From: a virus
DNA: 64,000 nt
Strand: one strand, 5' to 3'
IMG/VR virus record: IMGVR_UViG_3300031227_000028
Span: 1-64,000 of that record
The notes under the pieces: generated by a model
Database searches by the model: none
The model's input: the letters and a program-made list of their open reading frames with translations, nothing else
What the model was told of the DNA's origin: nothing
Program-made: the position numbers and the translations under genes
Shown here: positions 3,470 to 53,076 of the stretch, in pieces
Numbering within the stretch: the stretch's first letter is position 1
Layout of the letters: each line of letters starts with the position of its first letter

Positions 3470-5491
3470 TTACTCCACAACTGGAACAGTTGAACATCTA
3501 CAATTTGGATGTGCTGGTGGTTTAGGCCCATTATGTAATTTAAAAACATCACCATTTAAACCATTACATATTGGACAAGTTCTTTCAGAAACAGGTGCTA
3601 ACCATTGATATTTTTCAATACCTTCATCTTCATAAGTAATCATTAAACCTTCATTAGCTAATCTTATAGTTTCTGTTCTAGCTATTAATATTGGTCTTTC
3701 TTTACCGCTAACTGAAAGTATTTTTTCACCATCTTCACCTAAAACTAATTCTCCGTCTTTACTTAATTTATATCTATTTTTTGGTTCAACATAATCAGTA
3801 ATATCTCCAGCAATTTGTTTTACGCTTCTTTCATTCTTAAATCCATCTTTCATAATTTCTCTAAGCGCTTCTATTTGTGGTGTTGTAAATAAACCAGCTT
3901 CCATTTGAGCTTTATTTATAGCAGCTAATGCAACAAAATCATCTTTATCTATAGCTTTTTGAATATTTTTTTTATAATCTATTAAATTAAATCCAACCCA
4001 TTCTTTTAAAGAATAATCTCTATCTTCTATATTACCACATTGAGTATCATCTTCCTCATGAACATGAATATGTTTTTCTATAGGTTTTTCAATAATAGGT
4101 TTTTCTAATTGTAATCTAACTACTGGTACTGATTCATCTTCTTCTCTTTTTCGTTCTTCTTCTGGAACTTCTAAATCAGTATCATCGAAATTAAATAATA
4201 ATGCTAATTCTTTTTCAAATTGTATTCTTAATTTAAAATTTAAAGTATCATTTTCTAATAATTTAGTTATTTGTTCTATTCTATTGTTAATTTCAACTTT
4301 ACTAGGTTGACCCCATTCAAATTCAACATGTACGTCTTGAATACCATTAGCTAAAAGAACTCTTTTAAATATATCATTTTCAATATGTTTTTCAATTTCA
4401 GCCTGGAATGATTTAACTCTAATACTAAATGCTTGAGATTGTTCATCAGCTAATCCTTCAGCTATATTACCATGTCCCATTAATACTTCTGGAATTTGTA
4501 AACTAGAAAATAAATTTTGTCTTTCATATTCAAGAGGAAAAGAAAATTTGTCTCCAATTTTACCAAAATCAACAACACTAATATCAGTAAATACATCTGT
4601 TGCCCATTCAGTCATATTTCTCATATTATACATCTTTTGACCAATAGCTGTCACAGCTCCTTCATCTGGTATAATACCATTTTTATGTTGAGCATCTGGT
4701 AACATTCCTATTTTAGCATGTATAGGAGCATTAGCTTTTCTATGCATTAAAATATTCATATCTTTTTCAAGACCTAATATTCTATCTACATTATCTAAAG
4801 TAGAACATAATATTCCTAATCCATAAAAATCATCTTCAACTTGATTAAAATTAAGAGCAGAAATTTGATATGGTTCGAATTTAGTTTTTTCAACTTTTTT
4901 TTGTCTAGAAATATTATTCATTTCACCGAAATATTGATTAAATTCTTTTACATTTCCTTTATTATCTCTAACAACAAAAACATATTTAGCATTAAGTACT
5001 TTCATTCCTTTAGGAATTTCACCGTTTTTTCCACCTATTTCTAATGGAGAAAAACCGTTTTTTAGAGCATTTTTAACCCATCTTCTAAGTAATGTATCAA
5101 AATTATTAACTCTTAAGAAATCTTCTATAATTTTTACTGATTTTTCATTATCACTTTTAACAAAGAATCCAGGTCCTACTATATAATCAACATATTTATC
5201 AACAACAGATTGAATTAATCCATGTGATTTATATAGTCCTTCGGTTATATTATAATTAAATGGATGTTGTTCACCAATTTCATCTTTAAAGATTTTGATA
5301 TCTTTATCATCAGATTTAATTATTTTTCCTTTTAAATTAAAATCTTCTATTTGTTGATTTGTTTTGAAAAAAGAAAAATTGAAATTGTCAAAATTATCAG
5401 AATTATTAGTTTTAGTGTTTTCACTAATATCTATTGGTTTATTAGTTTTTTCAAGACTAAACCTTTCCTTAATGTTATTAATGATTCCCAT
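3470..5491 (-). CDS. Portal protein fused to MuF-type capsid morphogenesis domain
   Basis: This 673-residue protein has two parts. Residues about 60-420 look like a phage portal: FNYNITEGLYKSHGLIQSVV, a VGPGF turn, a LYGLGI-like helix region and the GQPSKVEINNRIEQI helix. Portals form the dodecameric ring through which DNA is packaged. Residues about 590-673 match the MuF family, with ARTETIRLANEG, a tryptophan, the zinc-like SERTCPICNGL and the closing HPNCRC. MuF proteins act in head assembly or are injected. Portal and MuF are normally adjacent genes and are fused here. The linker holds an acidic stretch (EEERKREEDE) and HIHVHEEDD. A TATA-like promoter and a leader of about 100 bases lie upstream. 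Confidence 0.88.
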   Translation of the reverse strand: MGIINNIKERFSLEKTNKPIDISENTKTNNSDNFDNFNFSFFKTNQQIEDFNLKGKIIKSDDKDIKIFKDEIGEQHPFNYNITEGLYKSHGLIQSVVDKYVDYIVGPGFFVKSDNEKSVKIIEDFLRVNNFDTLLRRWVKNALKNGFSPLEIGGKNGEIPKGMKVLNAKYVFVVRDNKGNVKEFNQYFGEMNNISRQKKVEKTKFEPYQISALNFNQVEDDFYGLGILCSTLDNVDRILGLEKDMNILMHRKANAPIHAKIGMLPDAQHKNGIIPDEGAVTAIGQKMYNMRNMTEWATDVFTDISVVDFGKIGDKFSFPLEYERQNLFSSLQIPEVLMGHGNIAEGLADEQSQAFSIRVKSFQAEIEKHIENDIFKRVLLANGIQDVHVEFEWGQPSKVEINNRIEQITKLLENDTLNFKLRIQFEKELALLFNFDDTDLEVPEEERKREEDESVPVVRLQLEKPIIEKPIEKHIHVHEEDDTQCGNIEDRDYSLKEWVGFNLIDYKKNIQKAIDKDDFVALAAINKAQMEAGLFTTPQIEALREIMKDGFKNERSVKQIAGDITDYVEPKNRYKLSKDGELVLGEDGEKILSVSGKERPILIARTETIRLANEGLMITYEDEGIEKYQWLAPVSERTCPICNGLNGDVFKLHNGPKPPAHPNCRCSTVPVVE

Positions 5492-7380: not shown

Positions 7381-7525
7381 TTTTTTTTACCTTATAATTT
7401 AATATTTTAATATTCGTAGAACAATATGAACAATAAAATAAATCACATATTTTATCATACATTATTATTCCATCATAACAATATGGACACATACCTATTC
7501 TTTCTTTTAATGGTACTAAAGCCAT
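7373..7525 (-). CDS. 50-residue zinc-ribbon protein
   Basis: A short gene with ATG at 7525 and stop at 7373, overlapping the start of the membrane-protein gene by eight bases. The product has two knuckles, CPYC and CSYC, spaced about 17 residues apart, a complete zinc ribbon. No other domain is present. The function is unknown; this window holds more than ten such mini zinc proteins. Confidence 0.55.
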   Translation of the reverse strand: MALVPLKERIGMCPYCYDGIIMYDKICDLFYCSYCSTNIKILNYKVKKND

Positions 7526-7577
7526 TTTTATATTTATATTATTAACTCTTTATTTATAAATATATAATTAAATAATA

Positions 7578-8327
7578 TTATTTAATTAATATTGGATTTC
7601 TATATGCTGTATATATGTTTGCTAAAATAACAGGTTTACCATATTCAATTCTATTATTAATATCTTTTTCTCCAAAATATTCTATAGATTTTTCAACCAT
7701 AAGTCCTCTATAACTAGTATTACTTTCAACAACATAAAAATTATTATCTTTAATAGATTCCCATAATAAAGATGCATGATTAAGATTAGATGCCCAACCA
7801 TTATTTGTATTCATTGGTGTTAAATTAAGATATAATCTATCTCCATATTTTGTTAATAAATTATTAAATTCTAACTGACAAATAATAAAATAGAACATAA
7901 AAATAGCATAATCGTCACAATCACCATAAAAATTATTTTCGCATAATTTGCTTGGCTTAAACCAACCATCAACTATATCTTTTACATATCTATTTTCTTT
8001 ATATAATTTTTCATATCTATAATTTAAAGAATCTAAAATAACTATATTAGCATTATTATTATTAATCCAAGCATCATTTTCAGTTATATAATTTCTCATC
8101 CATTCATATTCTTTTTGATCTAATAATTTATCAATTACAGGTCTCCAAGAACCATTAATATAGAATGTAGTATTTTTATTTTCAAAAGGTTTTAAATTAA
8201 CTCTTTTTCTTATTAAAGAATTTATATAAGAATTTTTTATATTATTCCAATTAGGATTAATAATAAAATTATCTATTTCGTTTATTATTTTATAATTTTT
8301 AATACAATTAAGAAACATATTGGTCAC
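7578..8327 (-). CDS. Transglutaminase-like cysteine peptidase
   Basis: This 249-residue protein carries a likely papain/transglutaminase triad. The cysteine is in GDCDDYAIFMFYF at about residue 140, the histidine in NHASLLWE, and an acidic residue follows in FYVVESN. Such proteins in phages can be peptidases, cell-wall hydrolases or amidases. The location next to a holin-like membrane protein and terminase suggests a lysis or entry enzyme. No signal peptide is visible. It overlaps the upstream HTH gene by 20 bases. Confidence 0.6.
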   Translation of the reverse strand: MTNMFLNCIKNYKIINEIDNFIINPNWNNIKNSYINSLIRKRVNLKPFENKNTTFYINGSWRPVIDKLLDQKEYEWMRNYITENDAWINNNNANIVILDSLNYRYEKLYKENRYVKDIVDGWFKPSKLCENNFYGDCDDYAIFMFYFIICQLEFNNLLTKYGDRLYLNLTPMNTNNGWASNLNHASLLWESIKDNNFYVVESNTSYRGLMVEKSIEYFGEKDINNRIEYGKPVILANIYTAYRNPILIK

Positions 8328-8564: not shown

Positions 8565-8644
8565 TGTCGCTACCCGGAATTGAACCGAGGTATTCCTAAC
8601 CTAGGAAATTTAATAGGCTATTCTTCCAATTAAATTATAGCGGC
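8565..8644 (-). tRNA. tRNA or tRNA-like gene, anticodon unresolved
   Basis: On the minus strand GCCGCTA pairs with TAGCGAC at the ends, except for a C:A mismatch at position 2:71. A perfect TΨC arm (CTCGG-TTCAATT-CCGGG) and a D-arm with GG in the loop follow the tRNA pattern. The anticodon arm is abnormal: GCCTA/TAGGT closes a 10-base loop, and an alternative stem ATTTAAT/ATTAAAT competes. No anticodon can be read safely. It may be a decayed tRNA or a tRNA-like element. Its own promoter lies upstream at about 8730. Confidence 0.6.
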
Positions 8645-10658: not shown

Positions 10659-10883
10659 TTATTTACCTTTATAATGTTCTTTACAATTCCAGACCTTATT
10701 TCTTAAATCAGCATGTTCTCCACCTTCAGCTGTGAAATTTCCATTATAACCTAAAAAACCTTTTATATATTTACAACAATTTTTATTATCGCAATATAAT
10801 CGTATACTTACAACAGTATTCACATACTCTTGCTCAGGCCATTTATATGAATTTCTTTCTTTTAATGTACTTTCGTATTCCAT
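10659..10883 (-). CDS. Hypothetical cysteine-containing protein
   Basis: A 74-residue protein with YCDNKNCCKYIKG and a later VWNCKEHYKGK. The Cys and His residues suggest a small zinc-binding fold. It is the last gene before the noncoding RNA-like region at 10.9-11.8 kb. Confidence 0.5.
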   Translation of the reverse strand: MEYESTLKERNSYKWPEQEYVNTVVSIRLYCDNKNCCKYIKGFLGYNGNFTAEGGEHADLRNKVWNCKEHYKGK

Positions 10884-10997
10884 TTTTATTTCTTTATTTT
10901 ATACGCACACATTATCCTCTTCCTTTCGGATTGTAGGCGTTGCACGATTTTAGATAATATTAAACATATCTTGACGCCTCGTTAAATTAATAATAGC
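10884..10997 (-). other. Noncoding stretch with hairpin downstream of the intron-containing tRNA
   Basis: No gene is seen here. AGGCGT (10935-10940) can pair with ACGCCT (10974-10979), and a GGAAGAGGATAA patch follows in the minus direction. The base composition is richer in G and C than the surroundings. It may be the 3' part of a structured transcript that includes the tRNA. Confidence 0.35.
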
Positions 10998-11133
10998 AGC
11001 ACCTAACCGGATTCAAACCGATGTCTCTTTTAAAACAACTTTATTTCATTATTCTAGTTTCACAAAATAAAGCAACATACTAGTAATATTATTTACGTTT
11101 ACAAAGCGCTTTATCGGGCTAAGCTATAGGTGC
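10998..11133 (-). tRNA. Intron-containing tRNA candidate, anticodon unresolved
   Basis: On the minus strand GCACCTA pairs perfectly with TAGGTGC. The D-arm is GCTT/AAGC and the TΨC arm is ATCGG-TTTGAAT-CCGGT. The locus is 135 nt plus discriminator, about 60 nt too long, so an archaeal-type intron in the anticodon region is likely. GCTTT can pair with AAAGT downstream, leaving GTTTT-AAAA-GAGAC as a long variable arm, which would make a Leu or Ser type. The anticodon cannot be fixed by eye. Confidence 0.6.
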
Positions 11134-11344
11134 ATAAATGCAACTTATTTCTCCATACAAGTTGCCAACACTTTCTTTAGCATAAAATAGTTTTTAATAG
11201 CAGTCTTGATTTCCTTCCACCATCACATGTAAAGTACTAGCTTTAAACCATAAGGAAACTAGCTCTTCCTCTCCCGTTACTGATGATTAGTCAGCACTAA
11301 GAGCGGCGATTACTTAACCTCTCAATAAATTGAGTATAAATTGT
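11134..11344 (-). ncRNA. Candidate structured noncoding RNA, part 2
   Basis: No plausible gene is present in these 211 bases, yet G+C is clearly higher than in the rest of the window, with patches such as CGCCGCTCTTAGTGCTGAC and ACGGGAGAGGAAGAGC. Several complementary short stretches are visible (for example CTGA/TCAG). The position directly before the intron-bearing tRNA recalls large phage RNAs (GOLLD, ROOL) found beside tRNA genes. I cannot match a known consensus. Confidence 0.4.
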
Positions 11345-11458
11345 TTACATTCCTGCAAACTTTGATAGGACTAATCCCATTAACAATCCGATAGACCAAG
11401 CAATTACTATAACTGCTGCAACCATTGGATGTCCAAAAAATTCTTGTTTTTGTTCCAT
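11345..11458 (-). CDS. 37-residue single-pass membrane protein
   Basis: ATG at 11458 and stop at 11345. The product begins MEQKQEFFGHPM, continues with one hydrophobic helix (VAAVIVIAWSIGLLMGLVL) and ends SKFAGM. Codon use is AT-rich and gene-like, unlike the flanking GC-richer noncoding DNA. It is either a tiny membrane protein nested in an RNA locus or a separate gene. The function is unknown. Confidence 0.5.
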   Translation of the reverse strand: MEQKQEFFGHPMVAAVIVIAWSIGLLMGLVLSKFAGM

Positions 11459-11846
11459 TTTGAATGTATGATAGTCTACCAACCAGATTTTTCTTTTTAT
11501 ATGTTTCTTGTATTCCGCTTTTCTGCGCCATCAACAAGCTACCCGTACATATTTGAGGTCCAAGTAATTCTCCCGCTGTCTCCTTCGGACGATGCCTTCT
11601 TTTTAACGCGGAAAGGTATGAGTATAAAAACCTGGCGCTATGAAATGAATTAAAAAACATAGGGCCAGGAAAAAGAGGTGATAATAAAACTCTTATATGT
11701 AATTTCGGTTGGTTGGGGTAAATTACATATAAGAGCGATTGATTGAAGTGAACATAAATATATATTTTTAAATATATATTCTTTATTTATTATAATTATA
11801 ATTATTTTACTTATTTATATAGTTTTAGATGTTCTATCATATAATA
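11459..11846 (-). ncRNA. Candidate structured noncoding RNA, part 1, with promoter
   Basis: In 388 bases no convincing gene is found. On the minus strand a TATA element (ACTATATAAATAAG, about 11806-11825) and an AT-repeat leader are followed by a strong hairpin (11690-11735) and then about 230 bases of relatively GC-rich sequence with patches such as GTCCGAAGGAGACAGCGGG and GATGGCGCAGAAAAGCGG. An open frame over part of it has codon use unlike any neighbour and is rejected. It may be one transcript with the segments and tRNA downstream. Confidence 0.4.
11690..11735 (-). other. 16-bp perfect inverted repeat (hairpin)
   Basis: CTCTTATATGTAATTT at 11690-11705 is perfectly complementary to 11720-11735, with a 14-base loop (GT/AC-rich). 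It lies near the predicted 5' end of the noncoding transcript. It could be a 5' stabilising hairpin, a protein-binding site or a terminator for either direction. Confidence 0.65.
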
Positions 11847-14280: not shown

Positions 14281-14751
14281 TTAAAATTCATATTTTAATC
14301 CTATTTCTGTTATACTTTTAGCATTAGCTATTCCTGTAAATTGTTCACTAGTAAAAATTCTATCTTCTATAAAAGCTCCTTGAAAATATTGTTCTTCAGC
14401 TTTAACTGGATGAGTACAATTATGAAAAGCATATAAAGTAAAATTAGATAATTTTAATTCAGCAAATATATCATATCCTTGACTAAATGGGTCAAAATAT
14501 ATGTTATTTTTTGGTAATTCCATATATGTTCTAGCAGCTCCTCCAATCTCTAAAGAAACATTATTATATAATTTTTGTTCTAAACTAAAACCAACTTCTA
14601 ATTTTGATATATTTTCTTTATAATCAAATATTTGGCCATATGATGGAACAAATGCAAAATCAGCATGACCGTGTGGTACTGGTTTAGGTAATGTACTACA
14701 TGAACTAATTAAAGCTACTAATCCAATAACTAATGGTTTTATTATTTTCAT
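14281..14751 (-). CDS. Predicted lipoprotein with beta-barrel-like body
   Basis: A 156-residue protein. The N-terminus MKIIKPLVIGLVALISSCST is a lipoprotein signal with a lipobox cysteine at about residue 18. The body alternates polar and nonpolar residues (KLEVGFSLEQKLYNNVSLEI, AELKLSNFTLYAFHN) as in small beta-barrels. It is probably exported and lipid-anchored on the infected cell surface, possibly blocking superinfection. A barrel-like lipoprotein is unexpected in an archaeal virus, because most archaea lack an outer membrane. Confidence 0.6.
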   Translation of the reverse strand: MKIIKPLVIGLVALISSCSTLPKPVPHGHADFAFVPSYGQIFDYKENISKLEVGFSLEQKLYNNVSLEIGGAARTYMELPKNNIYFDPFSQGYDIFAELKLSNFTLYAFHNCTHPVKAEEQYFQGAFIEDRIFTSEQFTGIANAKSITEIGLKYEF

Positions 14752-15453: not shown

Positions 15454-15522
15454 CTCCAATCAATTATTATTAATCACTAATTATAATTATAATAAACCAG
15501 TACTAATATATAAATGTATTGT
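15454..15522 (-). promoter_or_regulatory. Repeated promoter-leader cassette, copy 1
   Basis: On the minus strand: AATACATTTATATATTAGTA (TATA element), CTGGTTTATTATAATTATAA, AGTGATTAATAA and GATTGGAGATG. The same order recurs before several small genes. The TATA element and GGAGAT ribosome site make it a complete archaeal-type expression unit. Confidence 0.75.
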
Positions 15523-33127: not shown

Positions 33128-33165
33128 ACAAAACATTTATATATTAGTTATGATTATTTATTATT
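33124..33165 (+). promoter_or_regulatory. TATA promoter of the clamp gene
   Basis: ACAAAACATTTATATATTAG, the genome's core promoter, followed by an AT-rich leader and GAGG before the ATG at 33203. Confidence 0.6.
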
Positions 33166-35483: not shown

Positions 35484-36134
35484 ATGATAAATGAAATAAT
35501 AATAACTTACAAATTTTTTGGTAAGAGAGGCTTATTTGTATTCACAGGTATAGCAATAATCTTAGCAAATATACAAGTTTTGAAAACAGTACAATTATTT
35601 GGAATGGTTGCAACATTAGGTAATGTTATATATGGATGTTCTTTTTTGATAACAGATATATTATCTGAAAATCATGGGAAGAAAGATGCTAAGACAGCTG
35701 TTATAATAGGATTGTCTGCAGCAATAATATCAACTGTTATAATGTATATATGTACTTTATTCGTTCCACATTCAAGTGATTTCGCTAGTGGGGCTTTATC
35801 AACAATTTTTAGTGTTATGCCAAGAATAATGATTGCATCTTTAATAGCATATACAATATCTAACTTTAATGATGTACATATATTCCATAAAATAAAAGCT
35901 AAAACAGGAGATAAACATCTTTGGATTAGAAATATTGGTTCAACATTTTCAAGTCAATTATTAGATACAGTAATTTTTAGTGTAATAGCTTTCTGGGGAA
36001 TGTTTAGTAGAGATATATTTATTCAAATAATGTTAACTACATATATTATGAAAATTGTAACAGCAGCTTTAGATACACCTTTCCTTTATCTTGCTAAATG
36101 GATGAAGAAAAATGGTCATGTGAGTGAGGAATAA
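35484..36134 (+). CDS. yhhQ: Queuosine precursor transporter (YhhQ/VUT family)
   Basis: A 216-residue integral membrane protein with about six hydrophobic helices. The family signature TDILSENHGKKDAKTAV follows helix 2, and a conserved SQLLDTVIFSVIAFWG lies in the second half. Family members import preQ0 or preQ1. It is immediately followed by two TGT-like genes that would use such a base, so this virus appears to bring its own uptake system for 7-deazaguanine precursors. No de novo synthesis genes are in the window. Confidence 0.85.
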   Translation: MINEIIITYKFFGKRGLFVFTGIAIILANIQVLKTVQLFGMVATLGNVIYGCSFLITDILSENHGKKDAKTAVIIGLSAAIISTVIMYICTLFVPHSSDFASGALSTIFSVMPRIMIASLIAYTISNFNDVHIFHKIKAKTGDKHLWIRNIGSTFSSQLLDTVIFSVIAFWGMFSRDIFIQIMLTTYIMKIVTAALDTPFLYLAKWMKKNGHVSEE

Positions 36135-36135
36135 A

Positions 36136-37287
36136 ATGGATAGAAATTTTTTTGAAGAGAATAAATTAGTATATTTGCCAGCAACCCTTCCATCTGCTGA
36201 GTTATGTATAAATAATGATGAACCAACTGCAAAACAACCTCACTTTTGGAATAAAGAAACATCAATATGGTACTATCCAAATTTATTAATTAGTGCATAT
36301 CATGCAGATAAAATTGAAGATATTAGAAAATTAATGGGAATAGATAAAGATGTAAAAATTCTTTATGATAGTGGAGGTTACCAAATGGTAACCTTAGGAG
36401 GAAATATTAATCCTAAAGATTTAATAGAATTACAATTAAAAAATTCTAATGCTGGCCTTATATTAGATAATCCTCCTTTTAAAATAGGATTAGGAAATTC
36501 ACAGTTTGGTGAATCAATGAATGAAGATGAAATATCAATATGTCTTAATAAAACAAAAGAGAATGCTAAAATTGCAATGGCTAATAATATAGGACCAAAT
36601 AAAATTAGATTATATGGTGTAGTGCAAGGAGAATCATGGGAACAAATTAATAGATGGTATGATTCAATGCATGAATTAGAAGAAGAATATGGAAAATTTG
36701 ATGCCTGGGCAATGTCACCAAAACCATCAACAATAGCATTATATGGAATTTTATTATTAGAAAGAAAAATTAAAACCCCAATACATTTTTTACAGGCTAC
36801 AAGTAGAGAAGCAATATCCACTACCGCATATATTAGAAAATTATCAAAAAATTTGATAACTATTGATAGTTCAAATTTTTCATCTGGTACAAGATATGGA
36901 AGAATAATAAATTATGAGCATTTAGGTATATTTGATATAGGCGAAGGAAAAAGAGAAAAAAATAAAAAAGGTTGGTTTTGTGATTGTCCTATTTGTAGAG
37001 AAAGAAAAATTGATATTGAAAATTTATCAACAACAGATTTAAAATATATAAATATTCATAATTTATATCAAATAGTTAAAATTGTAAAAGTTGCAGATTG
37101 GTTAGTTGATTATAGTGAAGTAATGTTTTTTAATTGGATTAAGAAATTTAAATCATCATGCACTGGTGCAATTAAAATGTTACAATTTTATGATAAATAT
37201 GGATTAGAAAGAACTAAATTAAATTACTCAGATATATTCACAGCAAATGATAATATAGTAAATCAAAAAGGTTTATTTGATTTTTAA
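36136..37287 (+). CDS. DpdA/TGT-like 7-deazaguanine transglycosylase, paralog 1
   Basis: A 383-residue protein of the tRNA-guanine transglycosylase superfamily, viral DpdA type. It has DSGGYQ at residues 78-83, RLYGVVQGESWE, FDAWAMSPKPS, TIDSSNFSSG, and a zinc site CDCPIC with a later HNLYQ. DpdA enzymes swap guanine in DNA for a 7-deazaguanine base, protecting viral DNA from restriction. The start at 36136 has GAGG upstream. The C-terminus NQKGLFDF resembles a clamp-binding (PIP) peptide. A tRNA substrate cannot be excluded. Confidence 0.78.
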   Translation: MDRNFFEENKLVYLPATLPSAELCINNDEPTAKQPHFWNKETSIWYYPNLLISAYHADKIEDIRKLMGIDKDVKILYDSGGYQMVTLGGNINPKDLIELQLKNSNAGLILDNPPFKIGLGNSQFGESMNEDEISICLNKTKENAKIAMANNIGPNKIRLYGVVQGESWEQINRWYDSMHELEEEYGKFDAWAMSPKPSTIALYGILLLERKIKTPIHFLQATSREAISTTAYIRKLSKNLITIDSSNFSSGTRYGRIINYEHLGIFDIGEGKREKNKKGWFCDCPICRERKIDIENLSTTDLKYINIHNLYQIVKIVKVADWLVDYSEVMFFNWIKKFKSSCTGAIKMLQFYDKYGLERTKLNYSDIFTANDNIVNQKGLFDF

Positions 37288-37312
37288 ATTATATAGATTA
37301 GGAGAAAATAAA

Positions 37313-38458
37313 ATGAAAAGAACATTTTTTGAAAATAATAAATTAGTTTTTATCCCTGCAATTTTACCTAATAAAGATCTTTTTGGTAAAGAAACAGATA
37401 AATATTCTTTTTTTTCTGATAAGTCTTTATATTTTTATCCTAATGTTTTAATTAGTGCATATCACGGGAAACATTTAGATATTAGGAAAGAATTAGAATG
37501 TAATGATAATGTTATGATTTTAGGTGATTCAGGTGGATTTCAAGCAGTAACTTTAGGTGGCGATATAAACGCTAAAGAAGTTATTAAATGGCAAATGAAT
37601 AATTGTAATGCTGGTTTAATACTTGATAAGCCTCCATATAAATTTGGTGGAACAGCGCAATTTGCAGGTACACCATCTAAAGAATTTTTTAATGAATGTT
37701 TAGAAAAAACAAAACAAAATGCTTTAATAGCTCTTGAACATAATAAAGGCGAAAAGAAAATTAGATTATATGGAGTAATTCAAGGCGAAACATGGGAACA
37801 AATGAAACAATGGTATGAAACAATATCATCAATTCAAACAAATGAGAAAAAATTTGATGCATGGGCATTATCACCAAAACCATCAAATGATGTTTTTAAA
37901 ATTGCAATGCTTGGTATTTTATGTTTAGAAAAAAAAATAGATACACCATTGCATATACTTCAAATTTCAAATCGTCCTGGAATAATAGTTGCTGCTTTAA
38001 TAAGATTTTGTATTCAACAAACAGTAACTATAGATAGTTCTTCTCCTTCAAAAGCATCACGTTTTGGGGAAATATATAATCCATATACATTTTTAGCAGA
38101 AATTAAAACCGGGCAAAGAAGACCAAAAGAAAAAATGAATGGATGGATGTGTGATTGCCCAATATGTCAAGCAACTAATATATCTTTTAATGATGTTGAA
38201 AATAAAAATTATGAAAATATTTTGGATTTACATAATTTATATCAAATAGTGCGTTTTGTAAAATATATGGATTGGGTAGTACAAGATAAAGAAATATTAA
38301 TGAAAATGGTAAAAACTGTTTCAATTAATGCTTATAATGCAATTGAAATGATTTATTATTATAAAGAATATGGATTAGAAAGAACTAAATTAAAATATCC
38401 AAATGTATTTGAATCAAATAATGATGCATCAAATCAAAAAGGATTATTTGAATTTTAA
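37313..38458 (+). CDS. DpdA/TGT-like 7-deazaguanine transglycosylase, paralog 2
   Basis: A 381-residue paralog of the preceding gene and clearly a tandem duplicate: MKRTFFENNKLVFIPA against MDRNFFEENKLVYLPA. It has GDSGGFQ, RLYGVIQGETWEQ, FDAWALSPKPS, TIDSSSPSKASRFG, zinc site CDCPIC and HNLYQ. Both copies keep all visible motifs, so both may be active, possibly on different sequence contexts or bases or as a heterodimer. The C-terminus NQKGLFEF again looks like a clamp-binding peptide. Confidence 0.78.
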   Translation: MKRTFFENNKLVFIPAILPNKDLFGKETDKYSFFSDKSLYFYPNVLISAYHGKHLDIRKELECNDNVMILGDSGGFQAVTLGGDINAKEVIKWQMNNCNAGLILDKPPYKFGGTAQFAGTPSKEFFNECLEKTKQNALIALEHNKGEKKIRLYGVIQGETWEQMKQWYETISSIQTNEKKFDAWALSPKPSNDVFKIAMLGILCLEKKIDTPLHILQISNRPGIIVAALIRFCIQQTVTIDSSSPSKASRFGEIYNPYTFLAEIKTGQRRPKEKMNGWMCDCPICQATNISFNDVENKNYENILDLHNLYQIVRFVKYMDWVVQDKEILMKMVKTVSINAYNAIEMIYYYKEYGLERTKLKYPNVFESNNDASNQKGLFEF

Positions 38459-46572: not shown

Positions 46573-46608
46573 TTTTGTTTAAATGTACATTTAAATAAAC
46601 GTGATAAA

Positions 46609-46669
46609 AATAATTACCTACCGTTTAGAAACGAAAGGAGGAGTGATTCCCTCGTTGCAAGGAATTATT
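46609..46669 (+). ncRNA. Candidate three-way-junction RNA between tRNAs
   Basis: AATAATT (46609) pairs with AATTATT (46663), reinforced by CC/GG. Inside lie two hairpins, CGTTT-AG-AAACG and GAGG-loop-CCTC. The element is compact and noncoding. It could be a small RNA or processing signal. Confidence 0.4.
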
Positions 46670-46682
46670 GTTTATTTTTATT

Positions 46683-46759: not shown

Positions 46760-46880
46760 ACGTGTGTGGCTGATTGGTAAAAGCGCTGGACTTAGAATGA
46801 AAATTCGTCTACAAGATGTTTTTACATAAGTTATCCAGTTTCCTAAGTGGATGTTGTGTGTTCAATTCATACCACACGTA
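46760..46880 (+). tRNA. tRNA-Leu (TAG) with intron
   Basis: Acceptor ACGTGTG/CACACGT, anticodon stem CTGGA/TCCAG, loop CTTAGA-A, type II variable arm, TΨC arm GTGTG-TTCAATT-CATAC. A 36-base insertion (46797-46832) follows position 37, the canonical archaeal intron site. Splicing needs a host tRNA endonuclease. Confidence 0.88.
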
Positions 46881-46971: not shown

Positions 46972-47069
46972 TTGAAGGAGAAGCTAAAAATGGTCTTATT
47001 GGAAGCAAGAGGCAATGCTTGACGAAGAGAAACTTATAACTGTAGCGGGTTATACATTCATTATTTTTT

Positions 47070-47904: not shown

Positions 47905-47950
47905 CAAACATTTATATATTAGATATGGTTTTATATAATTATAATAAATA
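47905..47950 (+). promoter_or_regulatory. Second TATA promoter in the tRNA cluster
   Basis: AATACAAACATTTATATATT, AGATATGGTTTTATATAATT. It divides the cluster into two transcription units. Confidence 0.55.
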
Positions 47951-48174
47951 ATCTTAATATTAATTTATTAAGAAATATTAAATAACTAGATAATTATAGG
48001 TGTTATCCCAATCATATTAAAATGAACATACAAGAATGGAGACAGGACGGGGAAAGAGGCTTTGACATAGTGTTTAAGCCTATCTATCGTTAGTCCTTCC
48101 ATGGTTCATATCAATTTCTAAATAAATAAAAAAGAACATTGGCCATGTGCCATGGAATTCTAAAAAAAATATAC
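47951..48174 (+). other. Noncoding stretch with hairpins and a possible 23-residue ORF
   Basis: GGAC and GTCC enclose GGCTT/AAGCC in 48040-48100, so a structured RNA is possible. A 23-codon frame (48022-48093, MNIQEWRQDGERGFDIVF) overlaps this hairpin and has no ribosome site. I see no other gene. Confidence 0.35.
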
Positions 48175-48658: not shown

Positions 48659-48768
48659 GCACCCATAGTCTAAACTGGAAGGGCTCTTGGCTTCGATACA
48701 ATTGTATGGCTAGTAAGACGCTTTTTTGAAGATACCAAGGTATCCGGGTTCAAATCCCGGTGGGTGCT
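48659..48768 (+). tRNA. tRNA-Arg (TCG) with intron
   Basis: Acceptor GCACCCA/TGGGTGC, anticodon stem CTTGG/CCAAG, loop start CTTCGA, TΨC arm CCGGG-TTCAAAT-CCCGG. A 37-base insertion (48697-48733) follows position 37, again the canonical archaeal intron site. Confidence 0.88.
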
Positions 48769-51714: not shown

Positions 51715-53076
51715 ATGAGAGAAAAGATAAAAATTCCAGATAATGTAACAAATATTATGTCTCACCTTATAGCTCATGGTTATGATGCATATATTATTGG
51801 TGGGGCAATAAGAGATTACTTTCTTGGAATAATTCCTCACGATTGGGATTTATTTACAAATTGTCCTGACTTAGTTAATGAGTTTCCAGAAGGAAATGTA
51901 ATTGGTGGAGAAGAAAGACAAGCAAAGATTTTAACTGTGATAGTGGACGGAATAGAAGTATCACAATATCGAGCAAATGGTGAACGAACAGAAGTAGGAA
52001 ATGATTTGGAAACTCATTTATCTACTTGTGATTATAATATCAATGCAATGGCATGTGATATAAATGGAAACATCATAGATTTACATGGTGGAATATTTGA
52101 TTTAAAACATTGGACATTTGAATTTGTTGGTGATGGAAACCAAAGAATAAAAGAAGACCCTCTACGAATATTAAGAGGTATAAGACTTATTCTGAAGAAC
52201 CGATTACATCCAAGCCTGGAAACAGAAACAATTTTAGAAGAGAATGGTATTAAGTTATATGAGTTACCAAAAGAAAGAATCCGAGAAGAATTTCTTAAAC
52301 TTTTAAAATATGAAAAATGTTTTGATATATTAAAAGAATTTGAATTGTTAAAATATATCATTCCAGATATTGAAAAGTCATATAACATGAACGGTGGCGA
52401 TTATCATGATGAAACTGTTTTTGAACACATGAATTATTCATTTAAAGAAGCTTGTAAGATAACTGATAATGTATTTTTTAGATTAGCTGCAGGACTTCAT
52501 GATTTTGGTAAGATTTCTGCTATATCAAGAACAGTATTAATTGACCCTAGAACTATGAGAGCTATAGAAGATTCAAAGACACATTTCTATGAGCATGAAA
52601 GAATTGGTGCAGAAAAAATTGAAGAATGGATGAGAGAATATAAATTTGCTGAAAAGGAAATTAAATATGTTGTTACTTTAGTGCGAACTCATATGTGGGC
52701 TTGGACTGAAACAATTTCAAAACGGTCTTATATCAAACATTTCAAGAAATTTGAAGATGCAGATATTGATATTATGGATTTTGTTACTATGACTTATTGC
52801 GACAATCAAGGTAATATGAAAAACTCTAGAATTAAATTTGCTGATTGGGTAAGAGATAGTCCAATTCATAAAAAATATTATGAGTTAAAACATACTAATG
52901 AACCATTTTCAGTTAAAGATTTAGCAGTTGGCGGTAAAGATTTAATTCAATTAGGATTTAAACCTGGACCAGAAATGGGAAAACTTTTAAAAAAACTTTT
53001 TGAAAAAGTAATGATATGTGAAATTAAAAATGATAAACGTGAATTAATTACATTTTTAAAAGAATTTAAGGAATGA
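51715..53076 (+). CDS. cca: CCA-adding tRNA nucleotidyltransferase (class II, with HD domain)
   Basis: A 453-residue enzyme that adds or repairs the 3' CCA of tRNAs. Head domain: GGAIRDYFLG at about 28, HDWDLFT with the two catalytic Asp, TCDYNINAMA and EDPLRILRGIRLI. An HD domain follows (FRLAAGLHDFGK, EHERIGAEKIEEW). This is the class II (bacterial/eukaryotic) form; cellular archaea normally have class I. None of the viral tRNA genes encodes CCA, so the enzyme fits the cluster. Confidence 0.88.
   Translation: MREKIKIPDNVTNIMSHLIAHGYDAYIIGGAIRDYFLGIIPHDWDLFTNCPDLVNEFPEGNVIGGEERQAKILTVIVDGIEVSQYRANGERTEVGNDLETHLSTCDYNINAMACDINGNIIDLHGGIFDLKHWTFEFVGDGNQRIKEDPLRILRGIRLILKNRLHPSLETETILEENGIKLYELPKERIREEFLKLLKYEKCFDILKEFELLKYIIPDIEKSYNMNGGDYHDETVFEHMNYSFKEACKITDNVFFRLAAGLHDFGKISAISRTVLIDPRTMRAIEDSKTHFYEHERIGAEKIEEWMREYKFAEKEIKYVVTLVRTHMWAWTETISKRSYIKHFKKFEDADIDIMDFVTMTYCDNQGNMKNSRIKFADWVRDSPIHKKYYELKHTNEPFSVKDLAVGGKDLIQLGFKPGPEMGKLLKKLFEKVMICEIKNDKRELITFLKEFKE

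Follow-up and report, generated by a model that had tools for sequence, protein, structure and literature searches.

Large noncoding RNAs of the GOLLD and ROOL types have been found in bacteria and in bacterial viruses, and we know of no established function for them. ROOL (Rfam RF03087) is a large phage noncoding RNA that often lies near tRNA islands, and GOLLD is likewise found near tRNA islands in phages and in some cases carries tRNAs in a linker (PMC12286853). HGTV-1, a tRNA-rich haloarchaeal virus, encodes 36 tRNAs and a CCA-adding enzyme (PMC8651126).

Here we compare with these systems a largely noncoding locus of ~0.9 kb on the minus strand (10884-11846) of an AT-rich, tailed virus with archaeal-type genes. 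The window, by which we mean the whole stretch of DNA analyzed, comprises bases 1-64000 of an 82,856-base IMG/VR virus record. Like GOLLD (Rfam RF02032), the locus would give a long noncoding viral RNA, and a tRNA-family match lies inside the unit itself, the tRNA array of the virus being 35 kb away; unlike GOLLD, it yields no covariance-model match, belongs to an archaeal-type virus and folds no better than shuffled sequence. No structure shared with ROOL was seen at the locus. GOLLD and ROOL are a fitting comparison to start from, but the locus does not qualify as a member of GOLLD. The virus resembles HGTV-1 and archaeal intron-containing tRNA genes in being archaeal-type, in its many tRNAs, of which some carry an intron close to position 37, and in its CCA-adding enzyme; the element at the locus differs from archaeal intron-containing tRNAs in that removal of one intron does not restore it, and in its placement within a long, apparently promoter-led noncoding unit. 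The best explanation, to which we give about an even chance, is that the locus is a separate promoter-led, mostly noncoding minus-strand unit with a tRNA-like element, which would be processed as a tRNA-punctuated transcript.

Virus and host type

The window encodes a portal/Mu-F protein of the tailed-virus kind and a terminase whose best likeness is to Streptomyces phages, with a weak likeness to halovirus HGTV-1. Genes for an archaeal-type sliding clamp (PCNA), an RFC small subunit and an ATP-dependent DNA ligase are also present, as are a CCA-adding enzyme (51715-53076) and an array of 22 tRNAs at 46.4-49.9 kb, two of which (46760-46880 and 48659-48768) can be read as having an intron just 3' of the anticodon. 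Taken together, PCNA, RFC and the TATA promoters described below suggest that the host is an archaeon.

Composition and coding content of the locus

The locus comprises the following features:

11789..11822 (-), predicted core promoter: TATA box CTATATAAATAAGT at 11822-11809 and palindrome ATTATAATTATAAT at 11802-11789
11690..11735 (-), perfect 16-bp hairpin with a 14-nt loop, ACCCCAACCAACCG, then TTTTATT; folding z = -10
11631..11669 (-), second GC-rich hairpin, CCTGGCCCTATG/CATAGCGCCAGG, then TTTTT; folding z = -6.3
11459..11630 (-), noncoding 5' segment, rich in G and C with a peak of 51% G+C
11345..11458 (-), ORF37, 37 codons with one hydrophobic stretch; codon score 0.225
11135..11344 (-), middle segment, GC-rich and noncoding, in which several modest hairpins are predicted; folding z = -0.9
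10998..11133 (-), tRNA-like element; tRNA-family match of 39.2 bits (gathering score 29)
10897..10997 (-), 3' noncoding segment with predicted pairing to 11629-11610, which stops shortly before gene 10659-10883 begins

An earlier note on this DNA had described ~750 minus-strand bases as rich in G and C, and this is borne out: 10897-11655 has 35.3% G+C, whereas the window averages 25.3%, which places it among the top 2.2% of segments of that length (z = 2.65). At this size, only the tRNA array and the first kilobase of the window are GC-rich as well. Its description of these bases as noncoding agrees with codon statistics for most of the segment, but ORF37 is coding-like and the last 100 bases at the 3' end may serve the following gene (10659-10883) as its leader; the start codon of that gene lies 14 nt beyond the end of the unit.

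ORF37 corresponds to the 37-residue membrane ORF proposed previously, and its hydrophobic stretch is likely a membrane helix. Its score of 0.225 bits per codon can be set against a median of 0.38 and a 5th percentile of 0.016 for 37-codon pieces of long ORFs, and a 95th percentile of 0.163 for spurious frames; judged on this score, ORF37 is probably translated. No Shine-Dalgarno sequence was seen ahead of it, it has no family match, and a search for relatives carrying its peptide motif FGHPMVA found none. Two other frames were rejected as genes: the overlapping 112-aa frame ORF112, which covers 11459..11630, has a codon score of -0.45 and is not coding-like, and plus-strand ORF74 is ruled out by codon statistics. 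The 5' segment carries GGAGACAGCGGGAGAA, a motif that also occurs in the promoter-led noncoding segment 48000-48130(+) of the same virus, with the qualification that the motif count is post hoc, the pattern having been derived from those two sites themselves; sequence similarity between 11620-11540(-) and 48000-48130(+) is only weak.

A recurrent viral core promoter

The virus repeats a core promoter, ACATTTATATATTAGTACTGGTTTATTATAATTATAATTA, mostly 5' of genes with a Shine-Dalgarno sequence. The palindrome ATTATAATTATAAT occurs at 19 sites against ~0.05 expected (38 matches when both strands are counted, with 0.1 expected), and at most of these sites a TATA box lies ~22 nt upstream. Copies of the 40-nt core promoter with ATTATAATTATAAT are located at 15517, 16639, 17327, 18508 and 18988 on the minus strand and at 33133, 41706, 44303, 47908 and 49902 on the plus strand, and by its sequence this recurrent element is a virus-specific, archaeal-type promoter family.

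At the locus, the palindrome lies 21 nt after the start of the TATA-like box, as compared with 22 nt in canonical copies, and transcription is predicted to start at ~11795. Because the TATA half is divergent from the consensus and a rigid 40-nt matrix scores the site low (1.0 bit), the call of a promoter here rests on the palindrome and its spacing. A TATA promoter had been claimed before; one is indeed predicted, but it is probably not the ATATATA run beside the hairpin, and rather the box at 11822-11809 with its palindrome. The same promoter type precedes an irregular tRNA, 8565-8644(-), and the noncoding segment 48000-48130(+), and in neither case does a Shine-Dalgarno sequence follow.

The irregular tRNA (38.2 bits; promoter 8736-8697) lies outside the array and has a non-standard anticodon arm, and a 10-bp hairpin, CATACCAATTAAAAATTGGTATG, is directly upstream of it. 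Within the array, GC-rich noncoding segments occur between tRNAs on the plus strand at 46596-46676, 46980-47062 and 48000-48130, none with an Rfam match; the last sits ahead of tRNA-Val and has the viral promoter at 47908.

The tRNA-like element

The locus had been thought to run into an intron-containing tRNA. The tRNA-family match upholds the tRNA part of this claim, but a standard anticodon arm cannot be restored by removing any single intron. The match was obtained only with permissive filters and was missed in other searches. In the Infernal alignment the acceptor, D and T arms of 10998..11133 are intact and the interval between the D and T arms is 85 nt, so that ~85 nt with a 12-bp hairpin stand where the anticodon arm belongs. 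This hairpin is significant by itself (z = -4.7); the whole insert is not.

When introns of up to 200 nt were allowed, ARAGORN did not find a tRNA at 10998..11133, and at the same settings it found the intron-bearing Leu tRNA of the array as a control. Single-intron removals were enumerated for a 5-bp/7-nt anticodon arm with U33, a purine at 37 and a short or long variable region; there was no solution with position 26 kept, and with position 26 dropped the only solutions had implausible anticodons, such as AAA or GAA, and odd loops. An ordinary archaeal (bulge-helix-bulge) intron at the canonical 37/38 position likewise had no single-intron solution in this enumeration. Since no such solution exists and ARAGORN was negative, the sequence should be read as a tRNA-like element, or as a tRNA whose introns are unusual, and not as an ordinary intron-bearing tRNA. 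A19/U56 is read in place of the usual G19/C56, which suggests that the elbow of the tRNA is preserved. The acceptor, D and T arms are what RNase P, tRNase Z and the CCA enzyme recognize. A tRNA-like gene without an anticodon arm would be a candidate processing signal or decoy.

Hairpins downstream of the predicted start

The 16-bp hairpin described previously is confirmed as perfect, and the hairpin at 11631..11669 resembles an intrinsic terminator. Both lie, with their TTTT and TTTTT runs, 60-170 nt downstream of the predicted start. This placement would suit a long 5' leader of a minus-strand operon, in which the promoter is followed by two attenuator-like hairpins with T runs and by readthrough to ORF37, the tRNA-like element and the genes from 10883 to 8308. 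The unit could be such a leader because it runs into the downstream genes, all on the same strand, with no strong T-tract terminator between the tRNA-like element and the nearby start codon. However, the other genes with this promoter have short leaders, under ~50 nt and with a Shine-Dalgarno sequence, and 500 nt of GC-rich noncoding sequence plus a tRNA-like element would be unusual there. We regard a long leader as unlikely.

Folding and known RNA families

The locus had also been proposed to encode a single large, ornate RNA. Such a GOLLD/ROOL-like RNA would be held together by a closing helix, 11629-11610 x 10897-10917, and another long one, 11568-11555 x 11309-11321, so that the ORF and the tRNA lie in loops at the periphery. 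In the ensemble of 11740-10884, these two helices do appear at high probability: both reach a pair probability of ~0.9 or above over most of their length, the closing helix ~0.95 for most of 11629-11616 x 10897-10910. The GC richness of the locus, and the tRNA-carrying linkers and tRNA-island setting of GOLLD (PMC12286853), also speak for this structure. Against it, 24 of 60 shuffles contain as many long-range high-probability pairs, tests of the closing helix and of an end-to-end duplex are not significant (p ~0.1), and the 5', middle and 3' domains fold equally to shuffled sequence outside the hairpins and the tRNA. The long-range helices were accordingly rejected as proof of a large fold: they are present, but do not reach significance in the comparison with shuffled sequence. 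As a whole, the unit shows a slight excess of stability over shuffles (z = -1.8 to -2.7), for which the hairpins and the tRNA may largely account. Given that shuffles match both the long-range pairing and the domain folding, thermodynamics neither favors nor rules against a large structure.

Searches of Rfam, at gathering thresholds and in permissive mode up to E = 10, returned only tRNA at the locus besides chance hits, in keeping with the earlier statement that no known consensus could be matched. Checks for GOLLD and RNase P had been suggested in the earlier note, and both came back negative: the GOLLD covariance model had no match to the locus up to E = 10, including in a direct search, and archaeal RNase P RNA (RF00373) had none in the record, as compared with matches in 13 of 14 control genomes. 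ROOL gave no match in cmscan to E = 10, nor in a direct search whose controls contained no positive. We judge the single large ornate RNA to be quite improbable.

Distant relatives of the virus

A search of the locus DNA against phages found no homolog, nor did one with the motif GGAGACAGN{0,2}CGGGRRAA. Neighbor and hallmark proteins searched singly, and terminase and HNH alignments, turned up distantly related viruses, but nothing homologous to the locus. One record, G001 (IMGVR 3300035698_012866), is 100% identical to window positions 39095-59598 over ~20 kb and represents the same virus; it stops short of the locus. Terminase alignments revealed related contigs at 45-49% identity, including the distant relative G002 (terminase 47% identical). 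In two other related contigs, L014 and L123, the upstream regions hold genes, plus one ordinary tRNA in L123.

The contig of G002 (L096) has a tRNA array with intron-bearing tRNAs, and within it noncoding segments at 4048-4152, 4255-4556, 7432-7532, 7580-7662 and 8088-8200, some of them promoter-led. A 45-nt promoter repeat (4201-4245 and 8041-8085, 93% identical) precedes GC-rich noncoding segments. Segment 4255-4556 encloses a complete tRNA-Glu whose flanks could pair as GAATTGAAC/GTTCAATTC, with a duplex across the whole flanks not being significant. These units are like the locus in being GC-rich, noncoding and placed among tRNAs, some behind a repeated TATA promoter of their own. They differ in that two of them, 4048-4152 and 4255-4556 (in its 5' part), have folds significantly more stable than those of shuffled sequence (z -3.9 and -3.6), whereas the segments in the window do not. 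No G002 segment has an Rfam match, and none shows convincing sequence similarity to the window locus; as far as the sequences go, the parallel is one of arrangement, not homology.

That the locus is degenerate or recently acquired functionless DNA, a tRNA pseudogene with flanks of different composition, would fit the lack of locus relatives in these searches, the irregular anticodon arm, the random-like folding and a G+C content unlike that of the genome, but is made quite improbable by the viral promoter element at the right spacing, by acceptor, D and T arms that are intact and in which A19-U56 apparently replaces G19-C56, by the coding-like ORF37 and by similar noncoding units elsewhere in this virus and in a related one.

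A proposed tRNA-punctuated transcription unit

The GC enrichment, hairpins, tRNA-family match, promoter element and missing standard anticodon arm are sequence-based observations. A separate promoter-led unit is favored because the palindrome is so strongly over-represented (19 sites against ~0.05) and has the right TATA spacing at the locus, because two more noncoding units, 8565-8644(-) and 48000-48130(+), share the promoter without a Shine-Dalgarno sequence, because the locus is GC-enriched in a 25% G+C genome with noncoding codon statistics outside ORF37, and because distant relative G002 has promoter-led GC-rich noncoding units, one of them around tRNA-Glu. tRNA-type processing is favored by the family match, the intact acceptor, D and T arms and the virus-encoded CCA-adding enzyme. 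The separate-unit reading is weakened by the failure of these searches to find a homolog, hence by a lack of conservation, by folding outside the hairpins and tRNA that equals that of shuffles, and by a TATA box that matches less well than in other copies. The claim of a noncoding RNA locus in an archaeal virus thus survives as a probable separate promoter-led unit, consistent with PCNA, RFC, the TATA promoters and the G002 parallel; the single ornate fold is not supported.

For this separate unit we infer transcription, processing and a function of the released RNA's own. A core promoter element belonging to the virus itself would start transcription at ~11795, and the transcript would contain two strong hairpins, GC-rich and mostly noncoding RNA with a small membrane-protein ORF in its middle, and then the tRNA-like element. 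Host RNase P and tRNase Z would cut this element out, and the virus's own enzyme (51715-53076) might add CCA to it; cleavage would free a noncoding RNA of ~650 nt on the upstream side and leave the next gene with a short leader. Should promoter-led noncoding RNA units next to or around tRNAs prove to be an independent feature of tailed viruses with archaeal-type replication genes, the connection of viral tRNA arrays with large noncoding RNAs would become a general question. It is very unlikely, in our estimate, that the locus represents a new class, namely a large viral noncoding RNA of archaeal-type tailed viruses built around a tRNA-like domain with a structured insert for the anticodon arm, possibly an archaeal analogue of GOLLD/ROOL.

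Other observations

Three further features of these viruses were noted. On the plus strand at 35484-38458, a queuosine-precursor transporter gene is followed by two tRNA-guanine-transglycosylase-like genes, which suggests 7-deazaguanine modification of DNA or tRNA. The minus-strand gene 14281-14751 encodes a predicted lipoprotein with a lipobox-like LISSC and no NCBIfam family match; by eye it is like an outer-membrane barrel, which is odd for an archaeal virus. In three relatives the terminase gene is split by ~0.75 to 1.1 kb (L101 1546-4038, L114 1265-3448 and L123 2140-4647), in L101 and L123 near residue 196 of the window protein, possibly by an intron or inserted element.
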